A stretch of DNA of 64,000 nucleotides, from NCBI RefSeq assembly GCF_017745215.1, contig NZ_JAGHZV010000016.1:19991-83990 (forward strand), in the 5' to 3' direction. The notes beneath the pieces are model-generated. The model had not been told where the DNA came from and did no database searches. It saw only the letters and a program-made list of their open reading frames with translations. The number at the start of each line of letters is the position of its first letter. Positions within the stretch are counted from its first letter, which is position 1. The stretch comes from Sphingomonas sp. GTDB lineage: Bacteria > Pseudomonadota > Alphaproteobacteria > Sphingomonadales > Sphingomonadaceae. The position numbers were made by a program, and so were the translations under genes. Of the stretch, positions 54,040-59,649 are shown one piece after another.

Positions 54040-55451
54040 GCCACGCACTCCCTCGCCACGCTCACATCGTCGAACGGCAGGACGAGATCGCCGACGATCT
54101 GCCCCTGCTCATGCCCCTTGCCCGCGAGCAGCACGATGTCCTCGGGCTCGGCCAAGTCGATCGCCGCGGAGAAAGCCTCGCGCCGATCACCGATCTCGAC
54201 CGCGTTGGGCGCACCCTTCAGGATCGCGGCGCGGATCGCCGCGGGGTCCTCGGTGCGCGGATTGTCGTCGGTGACGATCACCACGTCGGCGCCCTGCGCC
54301 GCGACCTGCCCCATCGGTTCGCGCTTGCCGGGGTCGCGGTCGCCACCCGCGCCGAGCACGAGGATCAGCCGGCCGTGGGTGTGCGGCTTGAGCGCGGCGA
54401 TCGCCGCCTCGATCGCATCGGGCGTGTGCGCATAGTCGACATAGACCGGCGCGCCATTGGGCTTGATCACCGCGCGCTCGAGGCGTCCCCGCACCGGCTG
54501 GAGCCGCGCGAGATTGGCGATCGTCTGCGCGACGTCGCCGCCGGTCGCGATCACCAGCCCCGCCGCGACCAGCGCATTGGCGGCCTGATAGGCGCCAATC
54601 AGCGGCAGGTTGACCTTGTGCGCCTTCCCCTCGGCTTCGATCGTGAGCATCTGCCCGAGCAGGGTCGGCTCGCGCGCGACCAGTCGCAGCGCATCGCCAT
54701 GCTCGCCGACCAGCAGGATGCGATTGCCGCGCTGCCGCGCCAGATCCTCGACGCGCTCGGAATTGGGATCGTCGGCCCAGATCACCGCCGCGCCATCCGC
54801 GTCGAGCACTTCGGAGAAGAGGCGCAGCTTGGCAGTGAAATAGGTCGCCATGTCGCCGTGATAGTCGAGATGGTCGCGGCTGAGGTTGGTGAATGCCGCC
54901 GCGCGCACCGCCAGTCCCTCGGTGCGATATTGCGAGAGGCCGTGGCTCGACGCCTCGAAGGCGACATGCGTCACGCCCTCGCGCGCCAGCCCCGCGGCGT
55001 TGGAGAGGAAGGTCACCACGTCGGGCGTGGTCAGCCCCGTGGTCACACGATCGTCGGCCGTCGTCACGCCGAGCGTGCCGATCGACGCGGCGTGGAACCC
55101 CGCCATCCGCCACAATTGGCGCGTCATCTCGACGGTCGAGGTCTTGCCGTTGGTCCCCGTCACCGCCACCGCGACTTCGGGAAACGGTGCGAAGAACTGT
55201 GCCGCCGCCCGGGCGAAGCGCTCGCGCGGATTGCTGTCGGCGATATGCACCGCCCCCTCGACCACCGCCTCGGGCCGCGCCACCACCGCGATCGCGCCCG
55301 CCTGCACCGCCGCCGGGATGAAGTCCTCGCCGTTGACGCGCAGCCCCTGGAAGGCGCCGAACACCGTACCGGGCGCCACCTTGCGGTGATCGATCGCGAA
55401 GCCGGTGACCACCGCCGCCTCGTCGCCGCCCGTGATCGCGCCAAGCTTCAT
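54036..55451 (-). CDS. murE: UDP-MurNAc-Ala-Glu:diaminopimelate ligase
   Basis: 471 residues. ATP loop VAVTGTNGKTSTVEMTRQLW, EASSHGLSQYRTEGLAVRAA, NLSRDHLDYHGDM and the C-terminal TDDNPRTEDPAAIRAAIL with DNPR, the motif that selects meso-diaminopimelate. Overlaps the ftsI stop by 4 bases. Confidence 0.98.
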   Translation of the reverse strand: MKLGAITGGDEAAVVTGFAIDHRKVAPGTVFGAFQGLRVNGEDFIPAAVQAGAIAVVARPEAVVEGAVHIADSNPRERFARAAAQFFAPFPEVAVAVTGTNGKTSTVEMTRQLWRMAGFHAASIGTLGVTTADDRVTTGLTTPDVVTFLSNAAGLAREGVTHVAFEASSHGLSQYRTEGLAVRAAAFTNLSRDHLDYHGDMATYFTAKLRLFSEVLDADGAAVIWADDPNSERVEDLARQRGNRILLVGEHGDALRLVAREPTLLGQMLTIEAEGKAHKVNLPLIGAYQAANALVAAGLVIATGGDVAQTIANLARLQPVRGRLERAVIKPNGAPVYVDYAHTPDAIEAAIAALKPHTHGRLILVLGAGGDRDPGKREPMGQVAAQGADVVIVTDDNPRTEDPAAIRAAILKGAPNAVEIGDRREAFSAAIDLAEPEDIVLLAGKGHEQGQIVGDLVLPFDDVSVARECVA

Positions 55452-57160
55452 TCGGACCCCGCCTTGAGCGGATCGGCGACGCCCTGCACCAGCGGCAGCA
55501 CGTCGCGCAGGTCGATCTCGCGGCTGGCGTCGGGGATCACCCCCAGGATCGCGCCGGTGCGCGTCACCACGCGGCTGACGACCGGAGCCGCGGTCCAGGC
55601 CGCGGTGGTGAGTCCGTGAGTCTCGGCATTGCCGATGGGAGAATCGAGCATGGCAAGCACCACATAGCGCGGTGCGTCGATCGGGAAAGCCGCCGCGAAG
55701 GTCGAAACATTACTCTTGCGATTGTAACCACCGCCCTGCGCCACTTCCGCGGTCCCCGTCTTGCCGCCGACGCGGAAGCCGGGCGCCTCGCCCTTCTTGC
55801 CGGTGCCGTAGAGCACGATGAGGCGCAGCATCTGGCGCATCCGCGCGCTCGTCGCCGGGCTGAACACCTGCTCGCCCCGGGGCGCCTTGCCCGGTGCGAT
55901 CCTCATCAGCGTCGCCGGGCGCCAGATCCCGCCGTTGACCAGCGCGGCATAAGCGGTCGCGAGGTGCAGCGGCGTCACCGCGATGCCGTGCCCATAGGCC
56001 GTCGTCATCACCGTCGTCCGCGCCCAATAGCCCGGCCACAAGGGCCGCGCGGCATAGGGCAGCTCGATCGCCGGGCGCTTGTCGAAATGGAGCTTGCGGA
56101 ACATCGCCTGCTGGCGCGCCGCCCCCACTTCGTCCGCCAGCCGCGCCGTCGCGATGTTCGACGAGAAGATCAGCGTCTCGGGGATGTTGAGCCAGCGGTT
56201 CTGCGCGTCGCTGCGGTCGTCGTGGATGGTGAAGCGTCCGACCTGGAGCGGCTTGGTCGCGTCCAGCCGGTGCGCCATCGAGGTCACCACGCCGGTATCG
56301 ATCGCATTGGCGACCGAGATCGGCTTGAAGGTCGATCCCAGCTCGTAGACGCTCTGCGTCATGTTGTTGCGCGGCACCGGGCCCGCGATCGCGTTGGGAT
56401 TGAAGCTGGGCAGCGAGACCAGCGCCATGATCTCGCCGGTGTCGACGTCGAGGATCACCCCCGCCGCGCCCTTGGCCTGGAGGCTGGTCATCGCGTTCGA
56501 GAGTTCGCTCTCCAGCGCCGCCTGGACGCGCACGTCGATCGAGAGCGGCACCGGCGTGTCGCGCCCCGCTGCGCTCAAGAGCTGCTCGTTGAGCACGCCT
56601 TCCATCCCCGCCGCGCCCCGGCCCTTGTCGTCGAGGAAGCCGAGCACCTGCCCCGCCAGCGTGCCCTGCGGATAGAAACGGTCGGGCTCGCGCATCAGCT
56701 CGATGCCCGGCTCGCCCAGCGCATTGGCGGCGCGGACCACGTCGGCCGGCGCGCGGCGCTTGAGCCAGGCGAAGCGCGCGCTCGAATTGAGCAGCGCATA
56801 ATATTGGCCTTCGCTGCGCCCCGGGAACAGCTTCGCGAGCTTGCCCGCCAGCTCGGCCTTGTTGCCGATCACCTGGTTGGGGTGGATCGCGATCGACCAG
56901 CCGTCGACCGTGCGCGCGAGGGGCTTGCCATTGCGGTCGACGATGTCGCCGCGCGCCGGACGCAACCCCGCGGCGGGATCGGCCGGCGGCGCGGGCGCCG
57001 CGGACAGCGCCAGCACCCCCAGCTTGATCACGATCGCCAGCATCCCCGCGCCGAACAGCGCGGCGAGCATCACCAGCCGTACATGGGCGATCGCGACGAG
57101 CGATTGCCGGGGCCCGCCCGGTCGGCGCGCATGCGCCGGCGGTGCGACGACGATGCTCAA
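55448..57160 (-). CDS. ftsI: Septal transpeptidase FtsI (PBP3)
   Basis: 570 residues. One membrane helix near 33-55 after a short cytoplasmic part, then the class B dimerisation domain (RGDIVDRNGKPLART) and the transpeptidase domain. Active-site motifs: STFK (ELGSTFKPISVANAID), SSN (LIFSSNIATARLAD) and KTGT (GGKTGTAEVAQ). It crosslinks septal peptidoglycan as FtsW partner. The ATG overlaps the ftsL stop. Confidence 0.97.
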   Translation of the reverse strand: MSIVVAPPAHARRPGGPRQSLVAIAHVRLVMLAALFGAGMLAIVIKLGVLALSAAPAPPADPAAGLRPARGDIVDRNGKPLARTVDGWSIAIHPNQVIGNKAELAGKLAKLFPGRSEGQYYALLNSSARFAWLKRRAPADVVRAANALGEPGIELMREPDRFYPQGTLAGQVLGFLDDKGRGAAGMEGVLNEQLLSAAGRDTPVPLSIDVRVQAALESELSNAMTSLQAKGAAGVILDVDTGEIMALVSLPSFNPNAIAGPVPRNNMTQSVYELGSTFKPISVANAIDTGVVTSMAHRLDATKPLQVGRFTIHDDRSDAQNRWLNIPETLIFSSNIATARLADEVGAARQQAMFRKLHFDKRPAIELPYAARPLWPGYWARTTVMTTAYGHGIAVTPLHLATAYAALVNGGIWRPATLMRIAPGKAPRGEQVFSPATSARMRQMLRLIVLYGTGKKGEAPGFRVGGKTGTAEVAQGGGYNRKSNVSTFAAAFPIDAPRYVVLAMLDSPIGNAETHGLTTAAWTAAPVVSRVVTRTGAILGVIPDASREIDLRDVLPLVQGVADPLKAGSE

Positions 57161-57705
57161 CGCAGGGCCGAAAGCTCGGCTTCGCCCCGCTTCTTCAACT
57201 CCTCGAAGGTCTTGTCGTCGAGCATCGCGACAGCCTGGCGCACCTTCGGCTTGAGCTCGCCCTGCTGGGCGGTCCCGCGCGGCGTCTTCGACTCGACGTC
57301 ATCGCGCGACACCGACGCGGTCTGCACGGCCGGCGCCGCGACGATGCCGCCCGGCACCACCAGCTTGGCGGTCTGCTGCGGCGCGGCGCCCGGCTGCGTC
57401 GTCGCCGGTGCGGCGTCGAGGCTGGCGAGCGCCTGCTCGTCGGGGAGATACTGGCTCGCGGTCGGCGCGTTCAGGCCGAGCACCTTGCCGTTCCACTCGC
57501 CTAGCTGGAGCATGTTGGCGCGCGCGTCGAACTGCGTCTCCAGGTCGCGGATGTCCTTGTGCGCCTTGGCGATGCCGGCGTCGAGCGCCGCCAGCCGCGC
57601 GCGTTCGCCCGCGCCCTGCGACGTGGCCATATAGCTGCCGAGCGCCACCGCAACGGCACACCCGAACCAGCCCAGTCCCCTGAAGCCGTAGATTGCCACT
57701 GTCAT
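57157..57705 (-). CDS. ftsL: FtsL-like cell division protein
   Basis: 182 residues from ATG 57705, which overlaps the rsmH stop (ATGA); ATG 57723 would add 6. A membrane helix near 10-27 is followed by a coiled-coil-prone stretch ([20 protein letters not shown]) and a long tail to 182 residues. Sequence conservation of FtsL is weak; the call rests on topology and on its fixed place between rsmH and ftsI. It would join FtsQ and activate FtsWI. Confidence 0.85.
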
Positions 57706-58646
57706 GCTCCTTCGCTTGGCCACGGCGCTGCATCTGTGCGCCTGGCAACCCGAAGCGTCGCTGAACGCGCGCGCGGGTTTCTGTTAATCTCGTCGTCGCT
57801 GGGGCGGACCGCCTTCGCCGGCGTCTCGAAGCTCGGCGCGGCGCGCGCCGCCGTCTGCGGACGATGCCGGGAGCCCGCGGGCTCGCTGCCCGAGCGCTCG
57901 CGCAGGAACCGCTTCACGACGCGGTCTTCGAGACTGTGAAACGTCACCACTGCCAAACGCCCACCTGGCTTGAGAACACGCTCGGCAGCAGCCAGCCCTT
58001 CGGCCAGCTCGTCGAGCTCTCGATTGACGTGGATACGGACCGCCTGGAACGTCCGCGTCGCCGGATCCTTCTTATCGTACGGCTTAAATCCTAACGCCTT
58101 CCTAACCACGTTTGCCAGTTCGGAAGTCCGCGTAAGGGGGCGCGCGGAAACGATCGCGCGGGCGACGCGGCGGGCGCGCGGCTCCTCGCCATAGCGGTGC
58201 AGCACGTCGGCGATCTCGGCCTCGTCGGCTTCGTTCAGCCAGTCGGCCGCGCTCATCCCCTCGCCCGACATCCGCATGTCGAGCGGGCCGTCGCCCTGGA
58301 AGCTGAACCCGCGCTCGGCCTGGTCGAGCTGCATGCTCGACACGCCGATGTCCATCGTCACGCCGTCGACCGGCACGAAGCCGCGCCGCTCGAGCTCGGC
58401 CTCCATCGCGCTGAACGGCGCCTCGATCAGCGTGAGCCGTCCGGCGGACTCGGCCACGAGGGTTTGGCCGCCCTCGATCGCGCGGGGGTCGCGATCGAAG
58501 GCGGCCACCTCGGCACCCCGCTCGAGGATCCGTGCCGTATAGCCGCCCGCGCCGAAGGTCGCGTCGACGTGGCGCTCGCCCGCCCGGACGTCGAGCGCGG
58601 CGTCGACTTCGTCGATCAGCACGGGGATGTGGGGCGCCTCGCTCAC
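57702..58646 (-). CDS. rsmH: 16S rRNA m4C1402 methyltransferase RsmH
   Basis: 314 residues from GTG 58646 (overlaps the mraZ stop, GTGA). [40 protein letters not shown] (SAM loop), [24 protein letters not shown] and [20 protein letters not shown] are all present. Methylates C1402 in the ribosomal P site. The long ORF upstream to 58985 is a frame shadow of mraZ. Confidence 0.97.
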
Positions 58647-59131
58647 AGCGCGACTCCCTTCTGCTGGCAGAGGAATTCGCAGATCTCGCGGATGTCCTCG
58701 AACTCGGGGCCGGTCGTCGCCATCAGCACTTCGGGCGACCAGATCTCGAAGCTGTCGCCGGTGCCGCAGAAGAAGGCCCAGCGCCCGATCTTCGCCTTGG
58801 CGCGGAAGAAGGGCGAAAGGATGAAGCGGCCGCTGCCGTCGAACTGCGAACGCTCGACGGCGCCGAAGGCGCGACGCTTCGCACCCGCGGCGCCGTCCGA
58901 GCCCGCATCGAACATCGACTGGGAGGGATCGTCGATGCGGTCGTATTTCTGCTGCGACCAGCCCTGGTCGTGCGCGGTCAGGCAATTGGCATGCGGATGC
59001 TTGCCGACGACGACGGTCTTGAGGTCCGAGTTGCGCTCGATGGCGGCGCGCAGGTCAGCCGGGATCGCGACGCGGCCCTTGTCCTCGTCGACCGCCTGAA
59101 GCGCAAAGCCTTCGTACAGCTCCCTGGCCAC
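58643..59131 (-). CDS. mraZ: Transcriptional regulator MraZ
   Basis: 162 residues, GTG start at 59131 with GGGG about 10 bases upstream. It has the two AbrB-like repeats of MraZ, each with a DxxxR core: [20 protein letters not shown] and [20 protein letters not shown]. MraZ forms a ring and represses its own dcw operon. Three tandem GGG(A/C) boxes with 10-base period lie 140 bp upstream and are the likely operator. It is the first gene of the cluster. Confidence 0.95.
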
Positions 59132-59271
59132 CCTGACACACCCCGAACGTCAGGCACGCCGCTCCACGCTCCGAGAAGCGGCCCCTTTCGCCGCCACCCG
59201 GTCCCTCTGCGCTTCGCAATGAAAGCGGACGTACCCCGTATTTAGTCCGTCTTCCGTACGCCGAAGCGAAC

Positions 59272-59296
59272 GGGGATTCAATGGGCGAAACGGGGA
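59272..59296 (+). promoter_or_regulatory. Putative MraZ operator: three boxes with 10-base period
   Basis: GGGGA-N5-TGGGC-N5-GGGGA. MraZ of E. coli binds three direct TGGGN repeats separated by 5 bases. Number, spacing and position upstream of mraZ match; the first and third boxes have G for the leading T. As written, the boxes read on the strand opposite to mraZ. Confidence 0.6.
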
Positions 59297-59328
59297 TTAG
59301 CTGCCACTTTTCGCCATTTCTTGGCTTT

Positions 59329-59363
59329 GTTCTTTTATTGTTCTCGCAATTCTTCATTTGTTC
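59329..59363 (+). promoter_or_regulatory. Tandem LexA-type (SOS) boxes upstream of the dcw cluster
   Basis: GTTC-TTTTATT-GTTC (59329-59343) is an exact alphaproteobacterial LexA box (GTTC-N7-GTTC) with the usual AT-rich spacer. ATTC-TTCATTT-GTTC (59349-59363) is a second copy with one mismatch, exactly 20 bases on. They lie 200-230 bp upstream of mraZ in a 518-bp gene-free stretch. The nearest gene reading away from them is mraZ. Confidence 0.65.
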
Positions 59364-59545
59364 TCGGATTGCGGGCGGTTCCGGACTATCTTCGACGGCG
59401 GTTTTTTATATCGGTCCCGGAACGGGGTGGCGCTCGCGGCGCGGGGCGCGGCGGCTGGTCGCGCGGTTCGGGGCGAATCTACGCCTGCACCGACTCGCAG
59501 TCAAAGCGCAAAGCCGCAGAAATCCGCGAGTCGCCTCCCCCCAAC

Positions 59546-59626
59546 CGTCATCCCGGCGAAAGCCGGGACCCAGGGTTACAGAGGAATCGTTCACGGCCCG
59601 GGGTCCCGGCTTTCGCCTGGATGACG
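59546..59626. repeat. Intergenic double-hairpin repeat, copy 10 (reverse orientation)
   Basis: Arms as in the copy at 1135; right arm slightly diverged (TTTCGCCTGGATGACG). Inverted centre. With the regulatory boxes to its left it fills most of the 518-bp gap between mraZ and the small membrane-protein gene; the rest (59364-59545) shows no convincing gene. Confidence 0.93.
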
Positions 59627-59649
59627 GTTGAGGGAATGAGAACGCGAGC

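Follow-up and report, generated by a model that had tools for sequence, protein, structure and literature searches.

A conserved distal LexA operator that probably acts on the MraZ-controlled dcw promoter of Alphaproteobacteria

The LexA operator (SOS box) of Alphaproteobacteria is GTTC-N7-GTTC, and the MraZ operator of Escherichia coli consists of TGGGN repeats with a 10-bp period at the dcw promoter. Tapias and colleagues reportedly found in 2002 that LexA both activates and represses recA of Rhodobacter sphaeroides. The usual account of how SOS controls division invokes inhibitor proteins, SulA and SidA among them. Both of these are SOS division inhibitors, while DidA is SOS-independent (PMC4211646). 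In R. sphaeroides, mraZ is transcribed solely from a far-upstream start, and the 268-nt leader yields the sRNA UpsM (PMC5089854).

Here we compare these systems with the mraZ locus in a 64-kb stretch of Sphingomonas sp. DNA (64,000 nucleotides, hereafter the window). We recovered mraZ from 148 of 151 Sphingomonadaceae genomes; the family sample comprises 131 mraZ upstream regions, including one named relative from a close-relative search that returned one locus, and the class sample comprises 78 alphaproteobacterial mraZ upstream regions, one genome per family. In the window, the genes after mraZ are mraW/rsmH, one for a small protein at the place of ftsL, and one for an ftsI-type penicillin-binding protein. 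Because mraZ is on the minus strand, the LexA-type and MraZ-type boxes sit upstream of it:

55448-57160, minus strand: ftsI-type penicillin-binding protein (PF00905 and PF03717)
57157-57723, minus strand: open reading frame for a small protein, named from its ftsL position alone
57702-58646, minus strand: mraW/rsmH, start approximate (PF01795, E = 2.6e-89)
58643-59131, minus strand: mraZ, first gene of the dcw cluster (PF02381, E = 1.9e-11)
59253-59258, minus strand: predicted -10, TACGGA, a weak element and poor match placed by analogy to relatives, 17 bp from the -35
59272-59295, TCCC/GCCC/TCCC on the mraZ strand: MraZ-type operator of three repeats with a 10-bp period, GGGGATTCAATGGGCGAAACGGGG, conserved in relatives
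59276-59281, minus strand: predicted -35, TTGAAT, inside the MraZ repeats and aligned with the TTG-N17-TA promoter of relatives
59329-59343, plus-strand reading (GAAC-N7-GAAC on the mraZ strand): exact LexA-type operator GTTC-N7-GTTC, GTTCTTTTATTGTTC, supported by sequence, family, class and matrix
59349-59363, plus-strand reading: second LexA-type operator with one mismatch (ATTC-N7-GTTC), ATTCTTCATTTGTTC, 20 bp from the first

No Pfam family matched the small protein at 57157-57723, and no Rfam RNA matched anywhere in the window, including the DNA between the LexA-type box and mraZ. A REP-like inverted repeat (CCGTCATCCCGGCGAAAGCCGGGACCC ... GGGTCCCGGCTTTCGCC, 59547-59629) lies between mraZ and its upstream gene.

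The initial annotation had proposed an exact LexA box upstream of mraZ, a one-mismatch copy 20 bases away and an MraZ-binding architecture, and all three hold. The pattern GGGG-N6-TGGG-N6-GGGG at 59272-59295 occurs nowhere else in the window (0.12 expected), and only its middle repeat is exactly TGGG. CCC repeats every 10 bp downstream of the LexA box are conserved in the family and the class, and at least three G/C-run repeats at this period are found in the window, family and class alike. The arrangement matches the E. coli MraZ operator in its 10-bp-period repeats over the mraZ promoter and in adjoining mraZ. On the mraZ strand, the repeats run CCC in Alphaproteobacteria, whereas those in other members of the phylum run GGG, i.e. 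the operator is inverted. In the class, 46 of 78 genomes have a sigma-70-type promoter, TTGAC-N17/18-TAT, beneath the MraZ repeats, compared with 0 for a scrambled control. The repeats thus overlap the mraZ promoter in relatives, and by analogy with E. coli MraZ this fits autorepression. The window promoter is a prediction from alignment; a consensus promoter scan of the window returned no promoter at the predicted -35/-10. Some 20-35 bp before the dcw -35, class genomes such as L248, L292, L306, L312 and L322 also conserve a GGTTTTnCT stretch, possibly an UP element.

By itself, the GTTC-N7-GTTC pattern is weak evidence, with 3 sites in the window (1.1 expected) and 70 in the genome of origin (43 for a backward-pattern control). 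The sub-form GTTC-N5-WT-GTTC is more selective, occurring 21 times in this genome versus 0 for the backward control, and its members include the mraZ site as well as sites before recA, dinB, uvrA and an rmuC-like gene. The lexA gene of the same genome (C35:75421) has GTTCCTCGTCTGTTC just upstream. Nine probable SOS sites from the same genome served to build an SOS matrix, on which we ranked all 70 sites, as the initial annotation had suggested for recA and lexA: the mraZ site came 14th, above lexA (18th) and recA (19th), and it was 7th on a matrix made from recA and lexA only. The second box scored 13.0 bits on the recA/lexA matrix and 18.1 bits on the own-genome matrix.

Comparative evidence is far stronger. 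Of the 131 Sphingomonadaceae regions, 22 (17%) contain GAAC-N7-GAAC, at -206 to -282; each control spacing from 0 to 15 other than 7 gave 0-2 sites, and the GTTC-N7-GTTC orientation gave 1. Neither of the outcomes that the initial annotation had listed as refuting, a LexA score no better than background or a lack of conservation upstream of mraZ in other sphingomonads, was seen. One-mismatch boxes in the first 91 family regions numbered 24 at spacing 7 versus 0-9 at other spacings, and L042 and L050, the genomes nearest to that of the window, have one-mismatch boxes only. Across the class, 25 of 78 regions carry GAAC-N7-GAAC and 5 more carry GTTC-N7-GTTC (38% exact), with 0-4 at other spacings. 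In the remaining family and class genomes the box is degenerate or absent. A de novo motif search of the distal region in the class returned GAACANAANNNGAAC as its best motif. With a scanning matrix trained on lexA and recA boxes alone (cut-off 10 bits), 34 of 131 family and 36 of 78 class regions matched, compared with about 1 in dinucleotide shuffles and 0 in a control interval further upstream (-600 to -450). Taken together, the family, class and matrix results place the mraZ box far beyond chance. In a sample of the phylum outside the class, there was no LexA-type enrichment (CTGT-N8-ACAG, 1/27; the alphaproteobacterial box, 1/27), and an equivalent CTGT-N8-ACAG box there was rejected. CtrA sites (TTAA-N7-TTAA) were not enriched in the family and numbered 5 versus 2 in the class.

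Within the same genomes, the mraZ boxes have the motif of the lexA and recA boxes, with shared half-sites, spacing and flanking preferences, and the direct repeat appears at spacing 7 only. As positive controls, GTTC-N7-GTTC precedes recA in 27 of 30 and lexA in 28 of 29 family genomes, and GAAC-N7-GAAC precedes lexA in 25 of 30 class genomes. The box also tracks the regulator: it occurs in 0 of 13 genomes without a full lexA match versus 28 of 58 with lexA (Fisher p = 6e-4), an association partly confounded with small reduced genomes. By motif identity, then, the box is a predicted LexA operator to which LexA would be expected to bind. Its occupant could instead be another LexA-like regulator that recognizes these half-sites, and several genomes do encode further LexA-like S24 proteins; given the motif identity and the absence of the box where lexA is missing, we consider this very unlikely.

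Where the mraZ box departs from known LexA operators is in its position and its predicted target, a division and cell-wall cluster rather than DNA repair. It lies not on the promoter but 35-166 bp upstream of the -35 in the class (62-105 bp in the family and 62 bp in the window). In seven genomes of different families this distance is exactly 156 bp, and the DNA between box and -35 in these genomes is unrelated (30% ungapped identity) while the half-sites are kept. Such fixed spacing means that activation or looping could be tested directly by shifting the site. Helical phasing of exact boxes with the promoter is suggestive only (R = 0.31 at 10.45 bp, p ~0.02, uncorrected for relatedness), and for the class alone the optimum falls at 11.95 bp. 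A chance occurrence or functionless ancestral leftover would be in keeping with the weak significance of the single window site and with the many genomes from which the exact box is missing, but it is hardly credible in view of the specific spacing, orientation and position, the matrix match, the lexA association and the survival of half-sites amid unrelated DNA.

The canonical LexA-repressed layout, with the operator on the -35/-10 or start site, was not found at the mraZ box. Promoter signal at this box, on both strands and in both family and class, was 9.5-10.0 versus 9.7-10.0 with shuffled flanks; the positive controls, the box of lexA (12.7) and the MraZ boxes (12.0), were clearly above their shuffles. 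A promoter at the box in divergent or antisense direction was likewise rejected, with no signal on either strand. These values bear on one of the two main rivals to activation or looping, in which LexA would repress a second, unseen distal dcw promoter at the box, so that SOS adds transcription into mraZ, perhaps with a longer leader. Repression is the usual role of LexA, the far-upstream mraZ start of R. sphaeroides means that distal dcw promoters exist (PMC5089854), and box positions of -206 to -380 are compatible with this. However, the sigma-70 signal is no higher than in shuffles, and the class lexA box has TTGAC just upstream, an ordinary repressor layout, whereas the mraZ box does not; we therefore regard repression of a distal promoter as unlikely. 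The proposal in the initial annotation that the dcw cluster is under direct SOS control is thus sustained as far as conserved LexA-type and MraZ-type sites go, but not as ordinary repression, since the box neither overlaps a promoter nor has one of its own; direct SOS control itself may apply in another form.

The gene upstream of mraZ differs between lineages and is mostly co-directional, which leaves the box without an obvious client other than mraZ; a divergent gene as its true client was rejected on the same grounds, the upstream gene often being rnpB. We found rnpB (RNase P RNA), in the same direction, directly upstream of mraZ in 9 of 20 scanned loci (L245, L248, L295, L300, L312, L316 and others), and in L316 the LexA-type box touches the rnpB 3' end. 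This would suit the second main rival, an insulator or roadblock in which LexA, bound where the upstream gene ends, blocks read-through into dcw until relieved in SOS. The upstream gene varies by lineage, yet the distance from box to dcw promoter is kept (156 bp, seven families), so we judge a roadblock quite improbable.

We consider it reasonably probable that LexA uses the conserved box as a distal operator and acts through it, from a distance, on the MraZ-controlled dcw (mraZ) promoter. In undamaged cells, LexA would probably sit on this operator, 60-165 bp ahead of the sigma-70 promoter, which MraZ is expected to repress through its own repeats. The influence of LexA on that promoter would most likely take the form of activation from upstream, or of DNA bending or looping, and cleavage of LexA during SOS would change dcw transcription. 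Judged from sequence, activation (damage leading to less dcw expression) or looping appears to fit the position better than repression. R. sphaeroides recA may serve as a precedent for an activating alphaproteobacterial LexA, at a different gene.

In 37 of 131 Sphingomonadaceae the mraZ upstream region also carries a DnaA box, TTATCCACA, in one orientation (reversed control, 0; other strand, 1). Its commonest place is 21-23 bp ahead of the LexA-type box; examples of the DnaA box are those of L058 (-257), L100 (-246) and L121 (-257), and the window lacks it. One tentative joint reading, possible but doubtful, is that upstream activation (or looping) by LexA, held at a fixed distance, is ancestral to the alphaproteobacterial dcw promoter, that SOS cleavage lowers expression of the whole dcw cluster, and that in sphingomonads the DnaA box adds information on replication status.

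Taken singly, the LexA and MraZ operators are of known kinds. A literature search found no earlier description of LexA control of mraZ or dcw; the Caulobacter LexA regulon and comparisons of proteobacterial LexA lay outside its reach, so that priority is not certain. Like the UpsM leader of R. sphaeroides, the mraZ box would be an alphaproteobacterial case of control upstream of mraZ that is linked to stress, but the Rhodobacter control is RNA processing, and neither LexA nor SOS is mentioned there (PMC5089854). With SulA, SidA and DidA the mraZ box shares the link between DNA damage and division; those are inhibitor proteins, whereas the box would work through the transcription of division genes. 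If this is true, the dcw division and cell-wall genes would themselves be an SOS target across a whole bacterial class, and the box would be a widespread example of LexA sited away from any promoter. If the activation reading is also true, this would amount to a damage checkpoint without a dedicated inhibitor protein.

Other strong LexA-type boxes were seen in the genome of origin. Those at L006, L008, L015, L033 and L037 neighbor glyoxalase-like, unknown-type, DNA-glycosylase-domain, RHS/YD-repeat and Uma2 nuclease-like genes. A further strong box, GTTCATCATATGTTC (L004:1501-1515; C2:8535-8549 in the genome), precedes a CBASS cGAMP synthase gene by about 70 bp, which suggests that this anti-phage system may be under SOS control.
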